Source: Spirochaetota bacterium (GTDB lineage: Bacteria; Spirochaetota; UBA4802; UB4802). From it: a stretch of 33,135 nt of DNA. This document shows, piece after piece, positions 5,065-26,907 of this stretch (within the stretch, counting starts at the first letter, position 1; each line of letters opens with the position of its first letter). The position numbers and the translations under genes were made by a program. Under the pieces are notes generated by a model, which was not told where the DNA came from, made no database searches, and saw only the letters and a list, made by a program, of their open reading frames with translations. The stretch is taken from the NCBI GenBank assembly GCA_026414805.1, contig JAOAIH010000032.1:1-33135 (forward strand). The letters run 5' to 3'.

Positions 5065-6647
5065 ACAACCACATATTTCACATCAAGAATCTCCGGTAGC
5101 TGTGAAAGCTTTTCAAGCACTTCTTGTTGGATATCCTCATCAATTTCCAGTATAACAAGCGCCTTGCCGCCCCGTCGTGTGCGTGCAAGATGCAGGTTAG
5201 CAATATTTATATGATTTTTTCCTAGGAATGTCCCTATAGCACCAATAACATTGGGCACATCGTTATTGTGCATCACAAGCATTCTTCCCGAAGGTATAAA
5301 ATCAATGAGGTATTCATTACAGCGCACTACCCACGGCTGTTTTGCTATCACGGTTCCCCATAGTTCATTGTGCCCCAAGCCACCTTCTGCTTTTGCCTGT
5401 ATAAGGTGCGCCCAATCACCGGATTGTGTGCTTTCGCCAACATGTACCTTTATACCACGCTCAGCTGCAATCATGGTGGCATTTACATAATTTAAAGGCC
5501 TATCAATATAGGGCGATAGTAACCCTTTAAGGTACGCTGCTGTCAGAGGGTCTCTGCTGTATTTACCAAACTCCCCTGAATAATACAATTGTACAGAATT
5601 GACCTTGCCACCTAACATAATTGCTTGAAACTTACCCATACGTTCGGTCAAATTAATAAATGGCTTCAGGAAATCATATTGTTGCACATCAACTGATGCA
5701 TAATTGACACTGTCATGAACAACACCCTTTGTGAAATAATCAACAACCGTTTGTGCTGCTTCAATTGCAACCGAAACCTGTGCTTCATAGGTATATGCAC
5801 CTAAGTGAGGCGTGAGTATAACATTGTTGAGTTCATGAAATGGTGGCACGTCTATAGGTGGTTCCTGGGTAAATACATCCAGCGCTGCACCTGCTATTCG
5901 TCTTTCTTTTAATGCAGTATAAAGGTCCTGCTCATTTACTATTCCGCCACGGGCACAATTGATAATGCGAACATTAGGCTTTAATTTCCTTATCACATCG
6001 GCATTGATTATATTCTTTGTTTCTTCAGTTAATGGTGTATGTACACTTATAAAATCAGCTTTTTTCCATATTGTTTCAAGGTCAGCAATCTCTATATCCA
6101 TATTCACCAACTTTTCTTTTGCCAAATAAGGGTCAAAGCCCAATACCTGCATACCTAATGCCTTGCATAGTTTGGCAAACTCTGACCCTACTCTCCCCAG
6201 TCCTATAATTCCTATGACTTTGCGCCTTAGTTCAACTCCTTCAAATTTAGTTTTTTCCCATTTTCTCTGCTTCATTGATGAATCTGCCTGAGGAATATTC
6301 CGTGCAAGTGAACACAACAAGGACATGGCAAACTCTGCTGTTGAAATTGTATTGCCTCCGGGTGCATTGGTAACTATTATTCCTTTTGCTGTAGCACGTT
6401 CAACATCTACATTATCCACCCCAATGCCCGCACGAGCAATAATTTCAAGTTTGGTTGCTGCATCTATTACATTTGAAGTCACATGTGTTGCAGAACGGAT
6501 AATGAGAGCATGGGCATCAGCTATTTCTTTTTGTAATGCAGCCTCAGTAAGTCCCGGCTTATAAACTATATCAAAATCAGGATTGCCCTGCAAAAGTTGC
6601 AAACCTTCTTTAGCAATTTCATCCGTAATAAGAATTTTTTTCCTCAT
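5061..6647 (-). CDS. serA: D-3-phosphoglycerate dehydrogenase
   Basis: Oxidises 3-phosphoglycerate to 3-phosphohydroxypyruvate with NAD, the first committed step of serine synthesis. At 528 residues it is the long, three-part form: a split substrate-binding/Rossmann catalytic unit, an intervening (ASB) domain and a C-terminal ACT domain for serine feedback (MLVMHNNDVPNVIGAIGTFL). The nucleotide-binding motif GIIGLGRVGSEFA is at about residue 145. Catalytic residues are Arg in NCARGGIVNE, Glu in TQEPP, and His in LTPHLGAYT. The start is fixed by GGAGGG a few bases upstream of the ATG. It overlaps marC by 4 nt at its 3' end. The BASS gene lies 227 bases upstream on the same strand, with an inverted repeat between. 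Confidence 0.96.
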   Translation of the reverse strand: MRKKILITDEIAKEGLQLLQGNPDFDIVYKPGLTEAALQKEIADAHALIIRSATHVTSNVIDAATKLEIIARAGIGVDNVDVERATAKGIIVTNAPGGNTISTAEFAMSLLCSLARNIPQADSSMKQRKWEKTKFEGVELRRKVIGIIGLGRVGSEFAKLCKALGMQVLGFDPYLAKEKLVNMDIEIADLETIWKKADFISVHTPLTEETKNIINADVIRKLKPNVRIINCARGGIVNEQDLYTALKERRIAGAALDVFTQEPPIDVPPFHELNNVILTPHLGAYTYEAQVSVAIEAAQTVVDYFTKGVVHDSVNYASVDVQQYDFLKPFINLTERMGKFQAIMLGGKVNSVQLYYSGEFGKYSRDPLTAAYLKGLLSPYIDRPLNYVNATMIAAERGIKVHVGESTQSGDWAHLIQAKAEGGLGHNELWGTVIAKQPWVVRCNEYLIDFIPSGRMLVMHNNDVPNVIGAIGTFLGKNHINIANLHLARTRRGGKALVILEIDEDIQQEVLEKLSQLPEILDVKYVVV

Positions 6648-6789
6648 GAGCCCTCCACTTTTTGTGTATTAGTAGTATTAAAGTAGAGTAAACGCTGTCA
6701 ATTGTCAACAAATAGAATGTGGTTAATAATAAACTTTTGGAATCTTTTCAACCATCTTTAACTGGATATAATTCACACTTTCCACGCAC

Positions 6790-6844
6790 TGTAGAAAAAA
6801 ATGATATGTGATAGAAAATATTTCAGATATTCATTCTTTCTACA
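6790..6844. repeat. Inverted repeat upstream of serA
   Basis: Arms beginning TGTAGAAA and ending TTTCTACA pair over about 14 positions with one bulge, separated by some 26 bases. It lies after the BASS stop and about 143 bases before the serA start, on the transcript of both. It could be a weak terminator or attenuator or a protein-binding palindrome. No clean U-tract follows on the minus strand. Confidence 0.35.
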
Positions 6845-6874
6845 TTACGGCAGTAATGCGCTATCACCCGCCTA

Positions 6875-7789
6875 TCATTTTCTTTGCTTCCACCACCACG
6901 CAGCAATGGAGCCAGAAATATTGTGCCATATACTGAATATAGCTCCTGGCAGAGCAGCTAATGCAGTAAAATGCATTACTGCCAGTGATACTGCAAGACC
7001 GGAATTTTGCATTCCTACCTCAATTGCAATTGTTCGCCGTTCTTTTTCATCAAAATGCATTACAAGACTTGCTACATACCCCAACACCAGCCCCGCACCG
7101 TTGTGGAGTATAACTGCCACTACTGTGAGTGCACCCACAGCATGCAATGTGTGAGCATTTGCTGCAGTAATGCCTGCTATAATAGTAACTATCGCCATAA
7201 CCGAAACCGAAGGCAGTATAAATATAATACGTTCAACTGTATTTTTAAAAAAAATGCGCGTTACTACACCCAGTGCCACAGGAATAATAATAACCTTAAC
7301 AATTGAAATGAACATGGAAAATACCGGCACGCTTACCCACCGCCCCGCATACAGATACGTGAATAGTGGAGTAAAAATAGGCGATAGCAGTGTACTTGCG
7401 GTAGTCATTGCAACCGACAATGCAACATTCCCACCCGCCAGATATGTGATAACGTTTGATGCAGTGCCTCCGGGGCAACTGCCAACAAGGATTAGCCCAG
7501 CAACTATTTCCGAAGGAAGCGGAAGCAGTATGGTAAGCACAAATGCTATCAAAGGCATTATTGCATATTGAGCCACCACACCAGCTACTAGTGCTCGTGG
7601 AAATTTTGCAACATGCATAAAGTCATCAGGCTGTAATGTAATCCCCATGCCAAACATGATAATTCCTAAAAACATGGGAATAGAGTGTACCAGTCCTTTG
7701 AATGCATCCGGGAAAAAGTATCCACACAAAGAAAAAACTACTACTAATGGCAGGAAATATTGTTCTATACTACGTGTAATGGCACGCAT
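6875..7789 (-). CDS. BASS-family sodium/organic anion symporter
   Basis: A 304-residue membrane protein with about nine or ten helices. It belongs to the bile acid:sodium symporter (BASS) superfamily. It carries the signatures GSCPGGTASNVITYLAGG (the first crossover region, G-x-x-P-G-G-x-x-S-N) and EVGMQNSGLA (the second, E-V-G-x-Q-N). These line the sodium and substrate sites in characterised members. Substrates of bacterial relatives range from bile acids and pantoate/pyruvate-like acids to unknown anions, so none can be named. The start at 7789 (MRAITRSIEQYFLPL) has no clear Shine-Dalgarno. The gene is downstream of tRNA-Arg. A copy of the dispersed word (7828-7839) lies 39 bases upstream of its start. 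Confidence 0.9.
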   Translation of the reverse strand: MRAITRSIEQYFLPLVVVFSLCGYFFPDAFKGLVHSIPMFLGIIMFGMGITLQPDDFMHVAKFPRALVAGVVAQYAIMPLIAFVLTILLPLPSEIVAGLILVGSCPGGTASNVITYLAGGNVALSVAMTTASTLLSPIFTPLFTYLYAGRWVSVPVFSMFISIVKVIIIPVALGVVTRIFFKNTVERIIFILPSVSVMAIVTIIAGITAANAHTLHAVGALTVVAVILHNGAGLVLGYVASLVMHFDEKERRTIAIEVGMQNSGLAVSLAVMHFTALAALPGAIFSIWHNISGSIAAWWWKQRK

Positions 7790-7827
7790 GAAAGTAACCC
7801 ATGAATATATTTAAAAAAAGAATATAT

Positions 7828-7839
7828 GGCGATAGTTAC
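7828..7839 (+). repeat. GGCGATAGTTAC word, intergenic copy
   Basis: One of six copies of the 12-mer GGCGATAGTWAC; the others start at about 5512, 7186, 18645, 25724 and 32951. This copy is intergenic, between the BASS start and tRNA-Arg, so codon usage cannot explain it. Confidence 0.6.
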
Positions 7840-7995
7840 TAGATAAGAGACTGTTGCAGCTCATAATAATGGCATTATCTATATGTATGATAAACACTAT
7901 AAAAATAAAAAATTTCTGGTGTCATACATCAATGATTACACGATACAACCTTACGTTTGGGATTACTACCATCACTTTATTATACGCAGCCAATT

Positions 7996-8067
7996 CGCTC
8001 TCCCCGGGAATCGAACCCAGACACACGGCTCCGGAGGCCGACGCTCTATCCATTGAGCTAGGAGAGC
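7996..8067 (-). tRNA. tRNA-Arg (anticodon CCG)
   Basis: Read on the minus strand, a full cloverleaf folds. The acceptor arm GCTCTCC pairs with GGAGAGC over all seven positions. The D stem is GCTC/GAGC. The anticodon stem CGGC/GCCG holds the loop CTCCGGA with anticodon CCG. The T arm is CTGGG-TTCGATT-CCCGG. The discriminator is G, and CCA is not encoded, so it must be added by a nucleotidyltransferase. The 27-43 position is a U-U mismatch. The tRNA decodes CGG. Confidence 0.95.
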
Positions 8068-8210
8068 ACTGTAGGTTGCACTAACTTAGCTATTGCACTA
8101 GATACATGTCAAGATAATTTATTAGGTCACTGTCTATATATTACAGGTTAAGAGCAAACATGGCACACGCCCGACAGCATCAGTAAAATGCACAATGGGC
8201 TAGCAATATA

Positions 8211-8441
8211 TTATAATAAATATTCTTTTGCAATTTCATCAAGAGTTAACACCGAGTTAGGCAAAAGCAGGTCTGGTACTTTTCCGTATTTCTGTTTACA
8301 TTGGAACCGCTTACACATATTCCTGCCTTCAATGCCCGCAAGGCAATATTTGGCTTTAAAAGCTAACGTTGTGAATTGCATATCCGACAGAATGCCTGTA
8401 AAAATTGGACAATTTTCCGCATAGGGACATTTGTCTTTCAT
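8211..8441 (-). CDS. Small Cys-rich protein of unknown function (76 aa)
   Basis: A 76-residue protein with five cysteines in an ordered pattern: CPYAENCPIF at the start (C5, C11), KYCLAG (C33), NMCKRFQC (C43, C48), then KVPDLLLPNS. The pattern of an N-terminal C-x5-C, a central Y-C, C-K/A-R and a closing V-P-x-L-x-P-N recalls small conserved proteins I associate with anaerobic deltaproteobacteria and spirochaetes. A bound metal or iron-sulfur cluster is plausible but not shown. I start at the ATG at 8441; an in-frame TTG at 8462 would add seven residues. No clear Shine-Dalgarno supports either start. The gene stands alone between tRNA-Arg and a roughly 400-base stretch without a gene. Confidence 0.7.
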   Translation of the reverse strand: MKDKCPYAENCPIFTGILSDMQFTTLAFKAKYCLAGIEGRNMCKRFQCKQKYGKVPDLLLPNSVLTLDEIAKEYLL

Positions 8442-8741
8442 GATCAAAACCCAAAACAGCAATTGTTACAATACAATTATAGCACAGAAAGAGGGGTAGA
8501 ACTCAAATTCTTTTTTATGCTTTCAATTACCTTTAATACGATGGCAAGAGGTAAAGAAACATATAAGCTCAAGAAAATTGATACGATTTCAAAACTATAC
8601 AATTAACTCAGATATTTGCATTTTACATTATATATACATTATACAGAGAATTTTTTAAAGGATTAATACAAATTTTTTTTGTTTTTTTGCCGATATAAGC
8701 TATAAATATTCTTGACAAGTAAGCAACAAAATTTTTTTTGG

Positions 8742-8750
8742 TGCTATACT
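8742..8750 (+). promoter_or_regulatory. Extended -10 promoter (TGCTATACT)
   Basis: TG-C-TATACT matches an extended -10 element and needs no strong -35. A TTGACA at 8712-8717 is 27 bases away, too far to be its -35. Start of transcription would be near 8757, leading into a short segment closed by a terminator. Confidence 0.4.
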
Positions 8751-8756
8751 TTCCTC

Positions 8757-8823
8757 CAATTTAATGATTGGCGAACCTCCAAATTCTCTTTAGAGGGGAA
8801 CCCTCTTCCCCTCTACTTTTTTT
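8757..8823 (+). ncRNA. Putative small RNA (about 67 nt)
   Basis: The segment between the extended -10 and an intrinsic terminator has no start codon with a ribosome binding site and no meaningful frame. It would be transcribed as a stand-alone RNA of about 67 nt. Its 5' half contains ATTGGCGAACCTCCAAAT; the ACCTCC is complementary to Shine-Dalgarno sequences, as in several base-pairing regulators. The call is inference. The segment from 8463 to 8741 upstream is very AT-rich and shows nothing else. Confidence 0.4.
8792..8823 (+). terminator. Intrinsic terminator
   Basis: A perfect 9-bp stem, AGAGGGGAA with TTCCCCTCT, closes a five-base loop and is followed by AC and a run of seven T. It faces the plus strand. 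It lies between the putative small RNA and the 3' end of the small minus-strand gene at 8855. Confidence 0.85.
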
Positions 8824-8854
8824 ATTAAGGGTAATGTAGTAAAAACGTATGCAA

Positions 8855-8998
8855 TTAATAAAATCCCTGATATTCATTACGAGCAATACGATACTTTCTC
8901 CTATAATACTTGACAATAGCAGGCTTTATCATAAGGTAGCTAGCAATAATCCTGTCGGGCCATCCATATTCCAGGAGTTTCAAAATTGTTTTTCTCAT
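8855..8998 (-). CDS. Small HTH-like protein (47 aa)
   Basis: A 47-residue frame starts at an ATG with the near-perfect Shine-Dalgarno AAGGAGGGA just upstream, and a good promoter precedes it (9040-9067). The product begins MRKTILKLLEYGWPDRIIAS and continues with a strongly basic helix containing KPAIVKYYRRKYR. The spacing of hydrophobic residues resembles a single helix-turn-helix (cf. the pattern of homeodomain-like repressor or transposase N-termini), so DNA binding is a fair guess but unproven. It could instead be a basic leader peptide. I recognise no family. It converges on the putative small RNA, with the terminator 32 bases beyond its stop. Confidence 0.6.
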   Translation of the reverse strand: MRKTILKLLEYGWPDRIIASYLMIKPAIVKYYRRKYRIARNEYQGFY

Positions 8999-9259: not shown

Positions 9260-9628
9260 ATGGCACGAGCAAATAAATTTACTATTGAAGATAATATCGT
9301 AAACAGCATTATTGGCGAAGGTTCTGAATTCAAAGGCGAATTTAACATTAACGGTTTGCTACGCATAGATGGTAAATTCAAGGGAACTATCGCCACCGAT
9401 GGAAAAGTACTTATAGGGCAAACTGGCGAAGCTATCACCGACATACAGGCGCGGGTAGTAGTTATTGGTGGCACTGTCAAAGGCAATATTTATGCCACTG
9501 AAAGGGTTATCATGCTTTCAACAGGAATCATACATGGTAATGTCATTACGCCAAGCCTCATCATGGAAGATGGTGTTATTTTTGAGGGTAACTGCATCAT
9601 AAACAAGAGGCAAGAAAAACATGATTGA
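9260..9628 (+). CDS. Bactofilin (first copy)
   Basis: A 122-residue bactofilin. Bactofilins polymerise without nucleotide into membrane-associated filaments and position cell-wall enzymes in many bacteria. The central region is a right-handed beta helix with the family pattern: IGEGSEFKGEFNINGLLRIDG, then FKGTI, GEAITDI, VKGNIYATE and IHGNV at about 15-residue steps. The N-terminal tail is short (about 15 residues) and the C-terminal tail is short and basic. AAAGG precedes the ATG. It opens the operon with yaaR, whose start overlaps its stop by 8 nt. It shares the pattern of the second bactofilin at 26482 but lacks that protein's longer C-terminal tail. Confidence 0.93.
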   Translation: MARANKFTIEDNIVNSIIGEGSEFKGEFNINGLLRIDGKFKGTIATDGKVLIGQTGEAITDIQARVVVIGGTVKGNIYATERVIMLSTGIIHGNVITPSLIMEDGVIFEGNCIINKRQEKHD

Positions 9629-14332: not shown

Positions 14333-15202
14333 TTATCGCTGGCCTTTGATTAAACCCACAATGCGTTCAAAATCATCAAGAGAATAAAAGCTGATTTCAA
14401 TGCGCCCCTTGCCGCCTGAGTGCCTAATTTCAACGCGTGTACCAAGGTGCGAAATTAGTTCTTCCTCAAGTTTACGTATATGCGCATCTTTTACTTTCTT
14501 TTTCTTTTTGCCACTTGCTTTTGGTGTTTCAGCAATAGCTTTTTCAACATCTCGTACCGAAAGTCCCTGATGAACAATCCTTTCAAAGAGCGCTTCCTGC
14601 TCATCCTCAGGTACGCCCAAAAGCAGCTTTGCATGGCCAACATTTATTCTTCCATCCTGTAATGCCTCCTGTATGTGTTCAGGTAGGTTAAGAAGGCGCA
14701 TTATGTTTGCAATTGTTGCCCTATCTTTACCCACGCGCTCAGCTATTTCGGATTGCTTCAATTTGAAGCGCGTTGCAAGTATCTTATATGCTTTTGCTTC
14801 TTCAATGGGATCAAGGTTTGTCCGCTGAATATTTTCAATTAATGCAAGCGTCAGGTTTTGCTCCTCGGTTGTATTCATAACAATAGCTTTAATGGTTGGC
14901 TTTCCTAAAAGCTTACAGGCACGCCACCTCCGTTCACCGGCCACAATGAAATATTCCTCACCTTGCTTGCGTACAATGATTGGCTGTAGTAGTCCTACAT
15001 GCTGAATGGATTGTGCAAGCCCTGCTATCTCTGCTGCATCAAAATGGGCTCGCGGTTGATCAGGATTTGGCATAATAGAATTTATTGGTATATCTACAAT
15101 ACGTTCCTTATCCTGCAATAATACCTTTTCAAAATCACTCACTGGTGTTGGCGAAGTCGTGATGATTGCTCCCAATCCTTTGCCTAAAACCTTTTTTGCC
15201 AT
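14333..15202 (-). CDS. parB: Chromosome-partitioning protein ParB
   Basis: A 289-residue ParB/Spo0J protein. It binds parS, spreads as a CTP-dependent clamp and directs origin segregation with ParA. The N-terminal CTP-binding domain has GERRWRA (89-95) and ENIQRTNLDP (123-132). The helix-turn-helix is at about 148-170 (KQSEIAERVGKDRATIANIMRLL). A Lys-rich linker and a C-terminal dimerisation domain follow. The N-terminus MAKKVLGKGLGAII carries the Lys/Arg-Gly-Leu-Gly motif that stimulates ParA ATPase in homologues. AGGAG precedes the start. parA is 28 bases upstream. No 16-bp parS palindrome is visible in the window. Confidence 0.96.
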   Translation of the reverse strand: MAKKVLGKGLGAIITTSPTPVSDFEKVLLQDKERIVDIPINSIMPNPDQPRAHFDAAEIAGLAQSIQHVGLLQPIIVRKQGEEYFIVAGERRWRACKLLGKPTIKAIVMNTTEEQNLTLALIENIQRTNLDPIEEAKAYKILATRFKLKQSEIAERVGKDRATIANIMRLLNLPEHIQEALQDGRINVGHAKLLLGVPEDEQEALFERIVHQGLSVRDVEKAIAETPKASGKKKKKVKDAHIRKLEEELISHLGTRVEIRHSGGKGRIEISFYSLDDFERIVGLIKGQR

Positions 15203-15230: not shown

Positions 15231-15995
15231 CTATCGCACACTCTGAATCAGTTCATTTGCTAACTGCTCATAGCTCATACTGCCACTTGAAGCTCTGTCA
15301 TAAAGATTAATTGGCTTGCCAAATGATGGGGCCTCGGAAAGTCGCACATTTCGAGGTATAATTGCCGAGAAAACCTTATCTTTGAAAAATTGTTTCACAT
15401 CTGCAACTACCTGCTGTGAAAGATTGGTACGCGGATCATACATGGTCAAAAGCACCCCTTCAATCTCTAACTTTGGATTGAGCGTATCCTGCACCATAGA
15501 AATAATTTTTAATAGCTGACTCAATCCTTCCAGTGCATAGTATTCACACTGCAATGGAATAATAACCGAGTCAGAAGCAACAAGGCTATTCAATGTCAAA
15601 ATTCCCAATGAAGGGGGGCAGTCAATTAGTATAAAATCAAATGAAGCACGTATTGATTCAAGGGCTCTCTTTAAAAGATACTCCTTATCTTCCATATCCA
15701 TCAATTCCACCTGTGCACCTGCCAGATGCATATTGGAAGGCACCAGATATAGATTGTCGATAGTTGTTTTAAAGATTGCATCCTTTACGGGAATCTGGCC
15801 CAACAGCACCTCATACACTGTTGTCTCCATCTCCTCAACATTAACCCCAAGGCCAAACCCGGCATTTGCTTGCGGGTCAATATCAACAACCAGCACTTGC
15901 CTGCCCTTTTCTGCTAGAAATGCTGCCAAATTAACAGCAGTTGTGGTTTTGCCAACCCCTCCTTTTTGATTGGATATGGATATTATCTTACCCAT
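15231..15995 (-). CDS. parA: Chromosome-partitioning ATPase ParA/Soj
   Basis: A 254-residue ParA ATPase of the small chromosomal (Soj) type, without the N-terminal HTH of plasmid type Ia ParA. The deviant Walker A KGGVGKTTTA is at 11-20, Walker A' VVDIDPQAN near 38, Walker B FILIDCPPSLG near 120. ATP-bound dimers coat the nucleoid and ParB stimulates turnover. GGGAG lies upstream of the ATG. The stop TAG falls inside a copy of the dispersed GCGATAG word, as it does in marC. It sits immediately upstream of parB, and 195 bases downstream of the exported unknown gene. Confidence 0.97.
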   Translation of the reverse strand: MGKIISISNQKGGVGKTTTAVNLAAFLAEKGRQVLVVDIDPQANAGFGLGVNVEEMETTVYEVLLGQIPVKDAIFKTTIDNLYLVPSNMHLAGAQVELMDMEDKEYLLKRALESIRASFDFILIDCPPSLGILTLNSLVASDSVIIPLQCEYYALEGLSQLLKIISMVQDTLNPKLEIEGVLLTMYDPRTNLSQQVVADVKQFFKDKVFSAIIPRNVRLSEAPSFGKPINLYDRASSGSMSYEQLANELIQSVR

Positions 15996-16190: not shown

Positions 16191-17384
16191 TTACTTGTGT
16201 CGGTGCAGAATATGCCCGTCTCTGAACCAGTACCGCCGTTTTCCAGTAAAGCGCCTGGGATTAATCCTTTTCCACGTAAATCCAATAAGTACAATAACAG
16301 CAATAACACCCATACTCACACGTACAATTGGCATATATGGCAGTATACGCCTGCCATGTGCAACAACTAATGCAAATGGTTTATAGGGTGTTCTTTCGCA
16401 TTGATATACAGTAACAATGACTTCCTGTTTCATGGAGTTGTAAAACAGTATTTCATTTACATATCCACTATCCCAGGAACCAATCAGTTTTTTCCCTGCA
16501 AAAATATCCACCTGCACAGGATATGTAGATGGGAGATAGATAGTAATAGTGCCTACAGGCAGTGTACATTTATAACTTCTGGCATATTCATTGCCTTTGA
16601 ATGTGTCAACAACTGATAGTGCAATGCTCTGACCCCAATACCAGGCTTTTTGTACAAGCTCATCAACCAGCATGCCATAAGCTGTCCTGAAAATGAAATA
16701 GCGCATGTAGAGGGAATCCTCAGCAGTATGGTAGGCAGAATAATACACCACCCCTTTGCCATATTCTTTATAAAAAGCCACTGGACCTTCCCGCTCACCA
16801 CCAACAGTTGGAAAATAGCCTTTAGCCAATATGGATGCATTTACCCCCTGCAATGCTACCCACCCGTTATAATTTATATTCAACTGTATGTCATCCCGCA
16901 TAACAAATGATGAAAAGTCATTGGTTAAAAAACTATGTATTTGCCCGCTTGTTCCATAATGGGGAAAGTTATTAAAAAAAGATAGTGAACATCCCAGCGC
17001 TTCAACAAACCTGTAAGAAAAGCCTGCAGCATAAACTCTGCCACCACTTTGTACAAATTCACGTAGAAGCGTGTTCAACCGAGTATAATCTATTCCTTCA
17101 TAATCATCTTTTAATGCAACACCCTGAACTCGATGCCCATGCGCCATTACCTGTATGCTGGCCTCAATTGGCTGCTCAACGCCACAGGGTATAAACACAG
17201 CATCAAACCCGGACAAGGAGCTTTCGCCCGCCACAATTGATGCACGTTTTACAATGTAAGAGATATGATATTGGTCAAGTAATGATGAAAGATTATCATG
17301 GTATGATTTAAACACCAGTATACGAGGCGCAGCATGAGCCTGTAGCGCTACAAATATGAGAACAACAATGACCAGTTTCTTCAT
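16191..17384 (-). CDS. Exported membrane-anchored protein, amidotransferase-like
   Basis: A 397-residue protein with a signal peptide (MKKLVIVVLIFVALQAHA, cleavage before APR), an extracytoplasmic portion, one transmembrane helix at about 352-370 and a basic cytoplasmic tail (WKRINPRRFTGKRRYWFRDG). The N-terminal half resembles a class I glutamine-amidotransferase/ThuA-like fold: FDAVFIPCG, LNTLLREFVQSGGRVYAAG, and KGVVYYSAYHTAED. The nucleophile Cys position appears to be Gly/Phe in YAAGFSYRF, so it is likely non-catalytic, a ligand-binding or structural domain. The fold call is inference from pattern. Its ATG overlaps the stop of the 618-residue gene (ATGA), which indicates that the two proteins are made and probably act together. 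Confidence 0.65.
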   Translation of the reverse strand: MKKLVIVVLIFVALQAHAAPRILVFKSYHDNLSSLLDQYHISYIVKRASIVAGESSLSGFDAVFIPCGVEQPIEASIQVMAHGHRVQGVALKDDYEGIDYTRLNTLLREFVQSGGRVYAAGFSYRFVEALGCSLSFFNNFPHYGTSGQIHSFLTNDFSSFVMRDDIQLNINYNGWVALQGVNASILAKGYFPTVGGEREGPVAFYKEYGKGVVYYSAYHTAEDSLYMRYFIFRTAYGMLVDELVQKAWYWGQSIALSVVDTFKGNEYARSYKCTLPVGTITIYLPSTYPVQVDIFAGKKLIGSWDSGYVNEILFYNSMKQEVIVTVYQCERTPYKPFALVVAHGRRILPYMPIVRVSMGVIAVIVLIGFTWKRINPRRFTGKRRYWFRDGHILHRHK

Positions 17385-19237
17385 GAAAGACTCCGTATCT
17401 GAGACAGTATCCTGGTGCGCTCATCCAATATACCGTAAAGCCTGTCATTTAAACATATATGTGCCACCTGAAGGCAATATGCAACCATTTGAGGGAACAC
17501 TCCATCGCGCAGCATAGAATGTATCACTGGCTTATGAAGCATAAGCTTTGCAAGGGGTCTTGGCCTAGAAAAGCCGGTGATAATACAATCTGAAAAAGGA
17601 ATAGGAATTGCTTCAGTATCATTAAACGGAGAAAAACCTGCAGTATGGACAGAAAAAGGTGTCCGCAATATCACATCATCCCTACCCGGCGATCCATTTA
17701 AAACCCAGCGCCGATGACGATTATATAAAATAAATAACTCAATGCCAATATCATAGCACATATCTCCAATCACAGTCATAAACCGTTCAATGGGATAAAG
17801 GCTTTTTTTCTTTTTGTTAATGCCTTCTATTAATTCATCACGTGTCACATGAAATGTAGGATTATTTGTCCTGAAAGTATTTATTTCCGACAGTATCTCG
17901 GAAAAGCGTGCAAGTTCATGGGAAAAATAGGTTTCAGCAAAAATACATCCTTCAAGCTGTGTCTTATTATTTTCAAAATAAATCATAGTGCCATCAATCA
18001 AAACGCCATATTGATTAATAAATCCCAGAAGCATCCCTTCAAGCGCAATAAGAATATCTTTATTGTATACGTCATCAAATACCTCATTGCGCTTATCTAC
18101 CATCTTTCGTTGGTCATCAAATCCCTGAACAGCAACTTCTTTGCCCTCGGGAGCATAGGTTAAAAATCTATACAGCTCATCGTATGGGTCAAGTTTCCTG
18201 TGGAGTTCTTCCTTAGCTTTCTTTTTCAACGATTCAGGATCTTTGCCTGCCTTCACCAACTGTTCATGGTCAAAATTCCATTGAGTATCCGAAACCTTTG
18301 GCGCAGCAATATCAAACAGTGTAACTATATCACTTAGCACAACAGGTTTCCCCAGCACCAGTGCTTCTACACAAGCAATACAGAATGCTTCAAACGAAGG
18401 TAATGATCCTTCTTTTTTAAGCATTATGGTTAGCGAACACTCATTGGTGCTTGAAGGATACAGAATGCATCGCAGCATGGTAATGAAATCATAAATATAT
18501 TGCTCTATATCCAGATTCTTTTTATTCATTGAGTCGCTTTTGGCAAGATCCTGGCTTTCTCTTAGCTTCTGGTCAATTAATTGAATCATAGCCTCTTTGG
18601 TTTGTGCATCACACAGGGAAAGTTTCAACATGGAATTCATATAGGGCGATAGTAACTGCTTAAAACTCTCAGGCCTAGTCCATTTGAGCTCAATATACTC
18701 TTTGTCTAGAAGGCAGGAAGATCCCAATGCATTATACAGAACAACACAATAATTAAAATATTTTGGATCAGTAATTGACTGATCATTGACAATGTCACAG
18801 AGCACTCTGTAGAGCCGCTGTCGCAAGGCATACTGAAGTTCAAATAATTTCTGAGAAAGCTTTAAAAAACGCTGAGACGGAATAAGGCGCCGCAAAAAGC
18901 CAATGCCAAATTTGTTATTTACATGGACAAGTAGCCTTTTTTTAAAGAGTTTAGTGTGCTTATACTTTTGATACATATACGGAGTATTCTTTGAGTTATA
19001 CTCCTCTAGCTTTCTATATTCTTCACCCTTCACTTCTACCTTGCTGGGAGCAACAGGCTTAACAGGCTTATCAGGATAATTTTTTACCAGATCTATAATG
19101 GCATTGTATTTTTCTTCTTCAAGTATCCGCTCGTTGGCAAGTAATGCCCTCACAATTTCCATTTTGGCAGGAGGTATGTCTTTTGATAAAAGGAGTGCCT
19201 TTGCCTTTCGTTTCAATGCTTTAATATCTGTTTGCAT
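17381..19237 (-). CDS. Large protein of unknown function (618 aa)
   Basis: A 618-residue soluble protein that I do not recognise. I start at the ATG at 19237 (MQTDIKALKRKAKALLLSKD) because GTAAGGGG lies just upstream; an open frame continues 19 codons further without such support. No signal peptide or membrane helix is seen. The first 120 residues are basic and helical with a Lys/Pro/Val-rich linker (DKPVKPVAPSKVEVK). The middle is helical and charged. The C-terminal 150 residues are more globular and carry NRHRRWVLNGSPGRDDV and FSDCIITGFSRPRPLAKL. Translation is coupled to the downstream exported protein by a 4-nt overlap, and parAB follow on the same strand. A role at the envelope or in segregation is speculation. 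Confidence 0.7.
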   Translation of the reverse strand: MQTDIKALKRKAKALLLSKDIPPAKMEIVRALLANERILEEEKYNAIIDLVKNYPDKPVKPVAPSKVEVKGEEYRKLEEYNSKNTPYMYQKYKHTKLFKKRLLVHVNNKFGIGFLRRLIPSQRFLKLSQKLFELQYALRQRLYRVLCDIVNDQSITDPKYFNYCVVLYNALGSSCLLDKEYIELKWTRPESFKQLLSPYMNSMLKLSLCDAQTKEAMIQLIDQKLRESQDLAKSDSMNKKNLDIEQYIYDFITMLRCILYPSSTNECSLTIMLKKEGSLPSFEAFCIACVEALVLGKPVVLSDIVTLFDIAAPKVSDTQWNFDHEQLVKAGKDPESLKKKAKEELHRKLDPYDELYRFLTYAPEGKEVAVQGFDDQRKMVDKRNEVFDDVYNKDILIALEGMLLGFINQYGVLIDGTMIYFENNKTQLEGCIFAETYFSHELARFSEILSEINTFRTNNPTFHVTRDELIEGINKKKKSLYPIERFMTVIGDMCYDIGIELFILYNRHRRWVLNGSPGRDDVILRTPFSVHTAGFSPFNDTEAIPIPFSDCIITGFSRPRPLAKLMLHKPVIHSMLRDGVFPQMVAYCLQVAHICLNDRLYGILDERTRILSQIRSLS

Positions 19238-19497
19238 ATTCCCCTTACTATAACAATTGTCGATAATAGTAAAATCAAAGCACTGATGTGTCAAGATTAA
19301 TTATTACGGCAAAGCAAGAGGGGACTTTTTCCATTCAATTTCAGGGAAAATTTCACATCATCCAGCTAAAATATTTTATCTTTTTGTGGAGTAAAAAAAA
19401 ATAATACAAATACAATGCTCTGACTTAAAAAAAGTAAGGGTTTATTAATATCTCCTACTTTTTTAACAAAATAAGACCACTTGAGTATGCTGTTGCG

Positions 19498-19529
19498 TAA
19501 AAAAAGGGGAAAAGCTATCCCCTTTTTTT
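19498..19529 (-). terminator. Intrinsic terminator of the outer-membrane protein gene
   Basis: A-rich and T-rich flanks surround the stem AAAGGGGA/TCCCCTTT with a short loop. It begins 5 bases after the 19534 stop and faces the minus strand, though the symmetric A/T tracts would also allow use from the plus side. The remaining bases from 19238 to 19497 show no gene. Confidence 0.8.
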
Positions 19530-19533
19530 ACTA

Positions 19534-20664
19534 CTACCAAATGAAACCTGCTGTTATACCAACTGCAGCTCCGCTGTCAAAGTAATAGATAACCGGCACA
19601 TCAATTTTCACTGGCCCAAAATTAAATCCAATGCCAGTCATCACTCGTGCTCGTGCCCATTTTGGCTTTTTATCAAGCGTTTGCCCATTAACATACAGAT
19701 TCCCCGGAGTTACCTGGTATTGGTTTTCAGGTAAAGGTGTCCCATTGACTGCTATATCCTCAACCGTGGCATCAGCTGCTGCTTTGAGCACTAAATCACT
19801 GTTGCCTTTAACAAGGTCAATACCTGCACCCAAATTAAGGTTTAAAATCCACAAAAGCTGTAGCGCAGTATTAATTTCAAATGGCACACTTAGTGTATAC
19901 ATATTGAGAGCAATATCAAATGAAGGGTCTATGACTACATTACCAGTAACAGTATTAGAACCTTCAGTATTAGAAAATGGTTGTTTTATCTTATCCATCT
20001 TTATCCTGTATGTCACATCAGTCGTCTGATACACCAACCCTGTTCCCACTGTTAATCCCCGCCAGCGCAACAATCCAATACCAGCTTCATCAAATATGCT
20101 ATATGTTACACCACCTCCAACAATGAATGTGTTGAAGCTAAAGTCATCATTATCATATACCCAGGAACTGTCAAATTTACCAAATTTGGCATTGATATAT
20201 AACCCCGGTATTAAAAATCCCACATGTATGCCTATATTAACAAGAGCAACACTGCCTGCAACACCAGCATAAAGATCACCTTTTGCTTTTATATCATCTT
20301 CTATTTTGCCACTTTTATAATAATCAATATTTGTTGTAGGCGCCTGTGCTCCAATCATAACACCGGTGGTTATTGCAAATAGTGAATAATTTTGATAGCC
20401 TTGCTGTGTTGCAGCATTGGTAGAATATACATTGGCATTGGCAAAGCCGATAGCTAATTTTTCCTGATCTTGATATGGAGCTAAATCAGCATTAGCCTGT
20501 ACCATAGCATTTGCAAATTCTGTTGCTACTGCATTGTTTAAATTTGCAAAGTTATATCCAGATATAGTTATAGAGGGTGGTGTTCCTGTTATTGTAGCAC
20601 CAAACACCAAATGTGCAGGTAACAGTACTGCTGCCAGCAACGATATATAAAATAGCCGTTTCAT
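19534..20664 (-). CDS. Outer-membrane beta-barrel protein
   Basis: A 376-residue exported protein. AGGAGG lies seven bases before the ATG at 20664, which settles the start; an upstream in-frame ATG is unsupported. The signal peptide is MKRLFYISLLAAVLLPAHLVFG. The mature part alternates polar and hydrophobic residues and is rich in Gly, Asn, Thr and aromatic residues, with strand-like segments (GIGLLRWRGLTVGTGLVYQT; INTALQLLWILNLNLGAGID; ARVMTGIGFNFGPVKIDVPV) and the C-terminal GITAGFIW, whose final Trp is the usual signal for barrel assembly. It resembles spirochaetal outer-membrane proteins of the Lsa/OmpL1-like kind only in general form; no named family is claimed. It is monocistronic, with its own promoter and terminator. 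Confidence 0.8.
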   Translation of the reverse strand: MKRLFYISLLAAVLLPAHLVFGATITGTPPSITISGYNFANLNNAVATEFANAMVQANADLAPYQDQEKLAIGFANANVYSTNAATQQGYQNYSLFAITTGVMIGAQAPTTNIDYYKSGKIEDDIKAKGDLYAGVAGSVALVNIGIHVGFLIPGLYINAKFGKFDSSWVYDNDDFSFNTFIVGGGVTYSIFDEAGIGLLRWRGLTVGTGLVYQTTDVTYRIKMDKIKQPFSNTEGSNTVTGNVVIDPSFDIALNMYTLSVPFEINTALQLLWILNLNLGAGIDLVKGNSDLVLKAAADATVEDIAVNGTPLPENQYQVTPGNLYVNGQTLDKKPKWARARVMTGIGFNFGPVKIDVPVIYYFDSGAAVGITAGFIW

Positions 20665-20696
20665 TGTAATCCTCCTGTTGATTACCATTATAAACT

Positions 20697-21471: not shown

Positions 21472-22671
21472 TTATTTTTTTCTTCTTTCCTTTTTCCACT
21501 TTGCTTTATCTAACTTTGTCCAGCTTTCAACAACATGATATGTCATACTTGAGTATTTATCTTCTGTTTTCTTTTTACTACTTTTGGGTGTTACATGTTT
21601 TAGTTTGCTTTCAAGTTCTTCGTGCTCTTTGCGGGTCATCTTTTCTTCATTCATAAAAAATTCATGGAGAAAATTAATTGATACAGAGTTTTCCTGTAAT
21701 AGTTTTATAAACTGTGAGATTCTCTTTTTGTTGATTAGGTTTTGAATCAACATCTGCGGTATCACATCAAACCCATAAAGAGCTGTTGCAATTATTGCTA
21801 CAAGCGGAACAAGCAATGATACTTTACCTCCTCTTTTGATAGCTGAAAATAGTAAAGAATCTTTTTCATAAGTATTGATACAATAAACAGCCAGTGGAAG
21901 CAGCGCAAATGGATGATTTACATTGAGTCTGGTATAAGTATTTTTTGACCACCTGCTAGCAAATGTCACACAGTGTTGTGTTAGAGATGTTTCGTCATCA
22001 GTTAGCGGTAATTTTTCTATCATGAGGTACAGGTCTTTTGCAGCTTCAATAACTTTTTGCGGATTTCCGCCATTATCGAATATGGCCGAAGAATAAGTAT
22101 GCGTAAATTCTACTGTGTGTATAGCTGCCGTATGTAACACTGAAGTGTCACATGTGATGAGCTGTCGCTTAAAAATTTCTTCTAGTAAATTATATAAAAA
22201 CAGCGATGATGAAAAAGTAGCAGCGTTTTTGTTGTGCGTGAGAATAAAATTAATAATAGATTCAGGATGCTGTTTTTGTAAAAAAAACAACGTTGGGATA
22301 CAGATAAGCAATTCAGATGTAGGGGAATCATACAGTGAATCAAGATGTTGTAAAAATCCCTGGGGGTGTCGAAATACATGAGAGCTATCGCCCAGGGAAA
22401 TAATAAACTGTGAGACATGCTGATAGTTGAAGAATTGCGAATGTATATTTATTGCTGAAAGAATAATGCAATATTGCGAAAGAGCGGTATACAGGCCTGG
22501 TTTTTTCCACAGATGAAGTTTATGTTTTAAAGCAGGAGTTGGGTCAGTGTAATCGTGTAGTGTGCTAAAAACATTGTGTATGTGCTCTGCGCTGAGATTG
22601 TCAAGGGGGCTTGCGAATGCATCAGCAACAATAATACTGTGAAGAATCTGTGATAACTGTGTACGGTCCAT
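21472..22671 (-). CDS. Degenerate ADP-ribosylglycohydrolase-like protein
   Basis: A 399-residue, mostly helical protein. The opening IIVADAFASPLDNLSAEHI and the later AIKRGGKVSLLVPLVAIIATALYGFDVIP align by eye with the start (GxxxGDAxG) and the end (NxGGDxDTxAAIxGAxxGAxxG) of the ADP-ribosylglycohydrolase (DraG/ARH) fold. The metal ligands are lost: the usual TDD is not present near residue 55, and the Asp-x-Asp-Thr segment is replaced by KVSLLVP. Hydrolase activity is therefore unlikely; it may bind ADP-ribose or have a structural role. The last 60 residues are Lys/Glu-rich (KLKHVTPKSSKKKTEDKY). No Shine-Dalgarno is obvious. It could be another all-helical fold, and the family call is tentative. 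Confidence 0.55.
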   Translation of the reverse strand: MDRTQLSQILHSIIVADAFASPLDNLSAEHIHNVFSTLHDYTDPTPALKHKLHLWKKPGLYTALSQYCIILSAINIHSQFFNYQHVSQFIISLGDSSHVFRHPQGFLQHLDSLYDSPTSELLICIPTLFFLQKQHPESIINFILTHNKNAATFSSSLFLYNLLEEIFKRQLITCDTSVLHTAAIHTVEFTHTYSSAIFDNGGNPQKVIEAAKDLYLMIEKLPLTDDETSLTQHCVTFASRWSKNTYTRLNVNHPFALLPLAVYCINTYEKDSLLFSAIKRGGKVSLLVPLVAIIATALYGFDVIPQMLIQNLINKKRISQFIKLLQENSVSINFLHEFFMNEEKMTRKEHEELESKLKHVTPKSSKKKTEDKYSSMTYHVVESWTKLDKAKWKKERRKK

Positions 22672-26481: not shown

Positions 26482-26907
26482 ATGGCAGGTAAAGGTGATA
26501 ACATGAACAGTACCATTGGCGAAGGTTCTGTATTTGAGGGCAAGTTTTACATAAGCGGTTCATTGCGGATTGATGGTAAGTTTGAAGGCGAAATAAAAAC
26601 TGATGAAGAACTTGTAGTTGGCGAAACCGGCAAAGTCAAGACAAATATTCATGCAAAGAATGTAGTGGTTGCCGGGACAGTAATAGGGAACATTGTTGCT
26701 GATGAAGAAGTTAAACTTTTGGAAACTGCAAAGGTTCTGGGTGATATTGAAACGCCAATCCTCACTGTTCAGCGTGGGGTGGTGGCACATGGCATGGTTA
26801 CCATTACAGGCGGTCAGAAGAAGGATGTAAAGAAGCTTATTGAAGAATCATATGCTGGCTCGCCTCAAGCCCAAGGATTGTTTGGCAAAAAGGGTTCTGA
26901 GAAATAA
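26482..26907 (+). CDS. Bactofilin (second copy)
   Basis: A 141-residue bactofilin with the same beta-helix pattern as the copy at 9260 (IGEGSVFEGKFYISGSLRIDG, FEGEIKTDEELVVGE, VIGNIVADEEV, VLGDIETP), plus a C-terminal tail of about 35 residues (KKDVKKLIEESYAGSPQAQG). It is directly followed by a LysM/M23 peptidase gene 31 bases on. Bactofilin next to an M23 peptidase is a known arrangement in several phyla, in which the filament positions or controls the peptidase during shape determination; a role in cell curvature or helical form fits a spirochaete (inference). GAGGTG precedes the ATG. Confidence 0.94.
   Translation: MAGKGDNMNSTIGEGSVFEGKFYISGSLRIDGKFEGEIKTDEELVVGETGKVKTNIHAKNVVVAGTVIGNIVADEEVKLLETAKVLGDIETPILTVQRGVVAHGMVTITGGQKKDVKKLIEESYAGSPQAQGLFGKKGSEK

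Follow-up and report, generated by a model that had tools for sequence, protein, structure and literature searches.

Do two unnamed genes directly upstream of parA take part in chromosome partitioning, or do they merely stand beside the partitioning genes? The question is raised by a 33,135-nucleotide stretch of DNA from a Spirochaetota bacterium (GenBank assembly GCA_026414805.1, contig JAOAIH010000032.1), here called the window. Gene A (17381..19237, minus strand) codes for a 618-residue protein which looks soluble, is mostly helical in its model and belongs to an unnamed family widespread in spirochaetes. Its open reading frame covers 17381..19294 on the minus strand, and the ATG at 19237 gives the 618 residues. 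Gene B (16191..17384, minus strand) codes for 397 residues; model and hydropathy predict an exported, single-pass membrane protein. The TGA stop of A and the ATG start of B share an ATGA at 17381..17384 (minus strand). On the same strand, parA (15231..15995) follows B after 195 nucleotides (nt), and parB (14333..15202) comes after parA. These coordinates confirm the layout given in an earlier note on this DNA, which had proposed an envelope-linked two-protein module of a new type. The A/B pair is real, conserved and unnamed; its link to chromosome partitioning is testable but unproven.

Genes A and B are linked to each other and to parAB

Among 59 genomes, the window's own included, homologues of A were found in 45 and of B in 42. 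Against congeners, the ratio of nonsynonymous to synonymous substitution rates (dN/dS) ranged from 0.05 to 0.09 in A and from 0.07 to 0.10 in B. These values are rough, since dS exceeded 1 in half of the comparisons left after the exclusion of two in which it was saturated. Because homologues occur in many genomes and dN/dS is low, the two frames are genes and not chance. Judged by their sequences, both are under purifying selection.

The window's order consists of uncultured spirochaetes of the GTDB lineage UBA4802, and its families are labelled f1 to f7; G and L numbers are handles for genomes and loci. Named relatives at related loci include Spirochaetia bacterium UBA2205 and UBA5368 and Spirochaetes bacterium RBG_13_51_14. 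A and B were adjacent in all 22 genomes of f1-f6 which hold both genes, and in none of 19 in f7. The spacing was -4 to +47 nt in 13/13 loci with both genes from a named collection; the starts were chosen by script and the 13 loci are largely the same genomes under public names. One gene without the other occurs in five of the order's 46 genomes, namely A in G007, G016, G032 and G034, and B in G030. A contig end cuts the gene in G030 and G032. In G007 and G016, which form one f3 genus, the B profile finds nothing. Thus, the proposal of a two-protein module is borne out in part: the pair is coupled and conserved in f1-f6 save for this genus, yet unlinked in f7. The pairing is not obligate, for A occurs without B in that genus, as does the wider A family described below.

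Thirty B loci were available; in 25 of the 26 with about 1.4 kb or more downstream, parA followed B on the same strand. The gap between B and parA was ~6-321 nt in f1-f6, with ~6-16 nt in the four f4 loci, and ~156-923 nt in f7. In f7, where A has moved away, B still stood upstream of parA in 9/10 testable loci. In G007 and G016, which lack B, parA comes next after A, at 32 and 41 nt. That each gene stays with parAB even by itself speaks more for a role in ParABS than for one confined to A and B. The two genes are thus tied to parAB no less than to one another.

Synteny around the four genes served as a control. An unrelated yfcE-metG-ricT-holB block lay directly past parB in 8/16 loci, 4.4 kb off in one, and was unseen in seven. 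Among these seven are the three f4 loci, the two f3 loci and L098, where no more than 1.3 kb could be inspected. All 16 loci keep A or B upstream of parA while the parB-side flank changes in about half. On the other side, genes up to 6 kb upstream of A (8 loci) were common within families; across families only the f2 locus shared them with f5 or f6. The A/B-parAB link outlasts both flanks. In the two loci of the f3 genus without B (L145, L146) an open reading frame which by eye resembles aldo/keto reductases follows parB in place of yfcE.

ParA and ParB look canonical by family matches, and ParB keeps an LGKGL motif at its N-terminus; the role of this motif is described in PMC9712426. With both partners canonical and the motif retained, A and B seem to add to ParABS rather than to replace ParB. 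A parS site with up to 3 mismatches was absent from the 33-kb window. In the genome four parS-like places with 2 mismatches were present, two of them perfect palindromes 571 bp apart; a control pattern gave 0. The palindromes, TGTTCCACGTGGAACA at G000:C1:74760-74775 and 75331-75346 (L141, L142), are possible parS sites on a contig other than that of parAB, and the two further places are not palindromes. These sites are uninformative on A or B.

Protein B carries a GATase-like domain without the catalytic cysteine

Neither A nor B passed a Pfam or NCBIfam cut-off, and neither had a sequence match in the PDB, with a single sequence or a profile; the best PDB profile matches of the two had E values of 0.85-1.2. 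This bears out, for the libraries searched, the suggestion that neither belongs to a named family. Among the papers listed by literature searches none dealt with either gene, but as there is no gene name to search by, absence from print is not shown. The alignments of homologues (A1, and A2 for B) were each drawn solely from 30 homologous loci, with further homologues excluded; A2 contains 27 of the 30, since L036, L054 and L057 each carry one in-frame stop in the extended frame. The alignments for structure prediction (A3, A4) consist of the window and related-locus sequences.

The AlphaFold2 model of B (14 sequences) had a mean predicted local distance difference test score (pLDDT) of 84.6 and a predicted template modelling score (pTM) of 0.78. 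All its segments lie on the minus strand. Residues 1-18 (17331..17384) form a signal-peptide-like stretch by model and hydropathy, with a putative cleavage site placed by eye. Residues 18-240 (16665..17333) adopt the fold of class I glutamine amidotransferases (GATase), with VIA-align Z scores of 13-16 among the best 50 matches. Among them were the ThuA-like protein 1t0b (Z 16.4, root-mean-square deviation 3.0, 186 residues aligned, 9% identity), the GH42 enzyme 5xb7 (Z 15.2) and, at Z 13-14, glutamine amidotransferases and the IFT52 domain (5fmr, Z 13.9). Residues 253-343 (16356..16628) are modelled as a beta-sandwich resembling PPC and bacterial collagen-binding domains. Foldseek matched 5sv5 (TMt 0.66) and 1nqd (TMt 0.60-0.62) at an identity of just 11-12%; its listing gives no residue ranges and the match was placed at 253-343 from the strands of the model. 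A predicted membrane helix (residues 350-374, 16263..16337; model and hydropathy) is followed by a basic tail (residues 375-397, 16194..16262; alignment) with a net charge of +9 in the window protein and an RKYSGR-like core common to the homologues. The N-terminal hydrophobic stretch together with the C-terminal helix agrees with the earlier description of B as exported, and the basic tail, too, is as had been described.

The catalytic residues were then compared. In 27/27 homologues a Cys nucleophile is absent from positions 118-124; one carries a Cys at 116, in the preceding strand. Position 123, at the elbow, is Ser in 22, Ala in 3 and Thr in 2 of the 27; the elbow was located by the secondary structure of the model and by motif, not by residue-level superposition. 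The candidate catalytic His, H219, is His in 14, Tyr in 8 and Asp in 5. Judged by these residues, B is very likely not a glutaminase, and a Ser-based activity is unlikely. Model and alignment thus uphold the view of a GATase-like domain without its nucleophile.

B resembles ThuA-like and class I GATase proteins (1t0b) in the fold of residues 18-240. It differs from them in being exported and membrane-anchored as predicted, in its PPC-like domain, in the missing elbow Cys and in the absence of a Pfam match. ThuA gave no profile match to B at E ≤ 1 and was not among the families matched by the 27 members at E ≤ 0.1; given the similar modelled fold, B may be distantly related to the ThuA-like family. 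The GIFT domain of IFT52 and the GATase-like domain of GH42 enzymes share the GATase-like fold with B, whereas sequence kinship is not shown. Both use this fold without catalysis, the former in a ciliary, the latter in a sugar-degrading context. PADLOC returned a single match of B (E 0.027).

Protein A belongs to a divergent spirochaete family

In 30 members of A the best 19-residue hydropathy value was 1.2-2.1; A thus looks soluble, as had been stated before. The model (25 sequences; mean pLDDT 86.2, pTM 0.59) is mostly helical. Its fold search in the PDB gave a best Foldseek E of 0.71 and a best VIA Z of 5.9 over 54 residues, which we took as no match. We do not claim a new fold on this basis, since matches to single domains may go unnoticed in a model of 618 residues. 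Structure prediction and Foldseek, proposed earlier for both proteins, hence placed B with GATase-like and PPC-like domains and left A without a fold match. One region of A stands out: a beta-hairpin at residues 91-125 (18863..18967, minus strand) has a net charge of +9 to +14 in 30/30 aligned members. It is a candidate contact for nucleic acid or acidic lipid. Two assignments of A were rejected. As a group 1 glycosyltransferase it reached 21.1 bits in Pfam against a gathering threshold of 26.4, with 3/30 members at E ≤ 0.1 and a mostly helical model; as a defence protein, neither A nor two distant relatives had a PADLOC match at E ≤ 0.1.

All searches for the A family covered genomes of the phylum Spirochaetota, and because of this the family is not claimed to be spirochaete-specific. 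In a different family of the phylum, the A profile picked out frames 585-598 codons long (E 1.6e-7 to 6.4e-6). A match in G196 (E 1.0e-5) reads like NusB by eye and was dropped as chance. A local search recovered one of three distant A-like frames, L094 (E 4e-8), not L093 or L095; for this reason the tie of A to the wider family rests on the three comparisons that follow. With a distant relative as query, 36/385 genomes matched; the sole match in the window's order (E 6e-4) was a second paralogue and not A. In a profile-profile comparison (hhalign, one comparison) A and a profile of 22 distant members aligned over 447 columns with a probability of 97% and E 1.3e-10. A joint profile, A5 (26 sequences), matched 97/378 genomes of the phylum; 45 of these belong to the window's order, the remaining 52 to 18 families outside it. 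Ten of the 18 families (f8, f10, f14, f21, f31, f35, f40, f42, f44, f59) had given A5 no sequence; their best E values were 6e-18 to 4e-73. In ten wider-family members no Pfam or NCBIfam family scored above cut-off; two had weak Pfam matches. By these comparisons, A belongs to an unnamed, divergent spirochaete family with homology over most of its length. Of 385 genomes in the phylum the B profile matched 42, each a member of the window's order. Thus, co-occurrence across Spirochaetota held in part: B was found only in this order and the A family reaches well beyond it.

Paralogues of A were also seen. L147 (G104, family f36) holds two adjoining A-like genes at 5370-7130 and 7150-8979, and G123 and G127 have two close A-family matches each. 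In the window's order the second, divergent paralogue occurs in L161 (4865-6727), L162 (4603-6510), L135 (5031-6851) and L163 (9-1793); in L161 it adjoins flgN-flgK-flgL. Outside the order, flagellar, chemotaxis or bactofilin genes stand in some A-like loci and are absent from many.

Possible roles of A and B

Taking gene context and domain layout together, we tentatively propose, at somewhat less than an even chance, that A and B form an envelope-anchored accessory of ParABS, in which B serves as the membrane anchor and A as its partner in the cytoplasm. B would be held in the inner membrane; the pseudo-amidotransferase domain and the PPC-like module would be periplasmic and the short, conserved basic tail cytoplasmic. 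A as a cytoplasmic adaptor would meet B at the membrane and act on ParA or on the ParB-bound origin region. Origin positioning would thereby be tied to the envelope. We infer joint action of A and B, and action at the envelope, from the same layout. A bolder version appears rather unlikely: the A family would be a spirochaete organiser, recruited with B in the window's order as a trans-envelope tether that would link the positioning of the origin by ParABS with the periplasm or cell wall.

Several points weigh against an accessory of ParABS. The functional evidence for A and B is gene context throughout, and synteny alone can hold unrelated genes together, as the yfcE-metG-ricT-holB block beside parB in half of the loci demonstrates. 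At L058, an f7 locus, the 1.5 kb next to B contain no parA. In eight f7 loci a gene of about 225 codons on the opposite strand follows B (L098 3175-3849, which equals L045 821-1495; also L037, L040, L042, L049, L050, L052, L055), with parA beyond it in seven; therefore, a simple B-parA transcript does not exist there. By eye this gene encodes a small membrane protein with two hydrophobic stretches. In the window, B and parA, 195 nt apart, may or may not share a transcript. Among the loci inspected around A-like genes outside the order none showed a parA, save for a ParA-like fragment ~5 kb off at the edge of L136. Finally, in a tree of A (32 rows, 10 from f7) f1, f3, f4, f6 and f7 each form one group, f5 being not resolved. 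Because f3 and f7 each group as one, the one-partner states, i.e. one genus and one family, perhaps reflect one event each.

The main rival is hitchhiking. A and B may serve the envelope or growth and owe their place beside parAB simply to a stable chromosomal neighbourhood, which we regard as doubtful but a serious contender. The unrelated block beside parB fits this explanation, as do the varied neighbours of A-like proteins elsewhere and the break-up of the A-B-parAB unit in f7. It is harder to reconcile with the common strand and the tight spacing between A and B and, in f4, between B and parA, with A closing up on parA where B is lost, and with the retention of A or B upstream of parA in every one of the 16 loci while the other flank varies in about half. 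It is unlikely that A alone acts on ParA or DNA as a centromere-side partner, like ParZ of Borrelia, with B as a separate envelope gene. In G007 and G016, where B is missing, A does directly precede parA, and A has its basic hairpin; however, by eye its start lacks an LG(R/K)GL peptide, which ParB has, and A matched neither a DNA-binding domain nor a known fold.

There are two further explanations. The A family might belong to the flagellar, chemotaxis or polarity apparatus, with the parAB-linked A as a paralogue recruited to the same site. Some A-like genes lie beside fliD and near cheB (L130), beside flgN-flgK-flgL (L161), ~4 kb from fliW (L140), next to genes that by eye resemble response regulators (L154, L157), or with a bactofilin nearby (L093-L095; the Pfam check covers L093). 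Many other A-like loci, however, have no such neighbours by eye; we consider this explanation improbable. Least of all do we expect B to be an active enzyme on a periplasmic substrate with Ser123 as elbow nucleophile. S51 peptidases, which have a GATase-like fold, use a Ser nucleophile, and Ser is the commonest residue at position 123. Yet Ala or Thr replaces it in five homologues, the candidate His is Tyr or Asp in 13/27, and the elbow was not placed by residue-level superposition.

The proposed accessory would have precedents. In Myxococcus xanthus the PadC-BacNOP system bridges ParA to a cell structure by an extra protein, PadC, which has a ParB-like domain (PMC5703909). Two bactofilin genes are present in our window, too; a ParB-like (ParBC) domain such as that of PadC was absent from A and B at E ≤ 1. 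HubP of Vibrio cholerae is described as a fourth component of a ParABS system, located at the pole; A and B showed no HubP domain, as Pfam matched B not at all and A only below cut-off. Borrelia ParZ takes over the control of ParA from ParB and is said to be absent from other spirochaetes (PMC9712426). A and B resemble it in being lineage-restricted and encoded beside parA in a spirochaete. In contrast to the ParZ situation, ParB here retains LGKGL and the start of A lacks, by eye, an LG(R/K)GL-like peptide. PadC and HubP show that an additional adaptor can hold ParA, and ParZ that spirochaetes have altered ParABS. By the features tested, A and B belong to none of the three; by analogy they may work like PadC or HubP. 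If the envelope-anchored accessory is true, a large uncultured spirochaete lineage has envelope-linked partitioning accessories from families unnamed in the libraries searched, and A and B join PadC, HubP and ParZ with another way of placing ParA in the cell. The A family would then be a target for functional tests in any culturable carrier.

Other features of the window

A weak promoter-like site (10/12 match) lies ahead of A at 19266..19294 and a weak terminator-like site past the gene upstream of A at 19507..19522, both on the minus strand; scans of the region for promoters and terminators gave site numbers no higher than in shuffled sequences. A 399-residue open reading frame at 21472-22671 (minus strand) had no Pfam or NCBIfam match above cut-off. 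The two bactofilin genes are at 9260-9628 and 26482-26907 on the plus strand (Pfam PF04519, E 1e-27). The former accompanies the parB-side block in L062, L072, L074 and L081, not in 12 other loci. The gene immediately upstream of A (19534-20688, minus strand) matched the NCBIfam family of Lsa36 / LIC_11975 surface (lipo)proteins with 111 bits against a cut-off of 90 bits.

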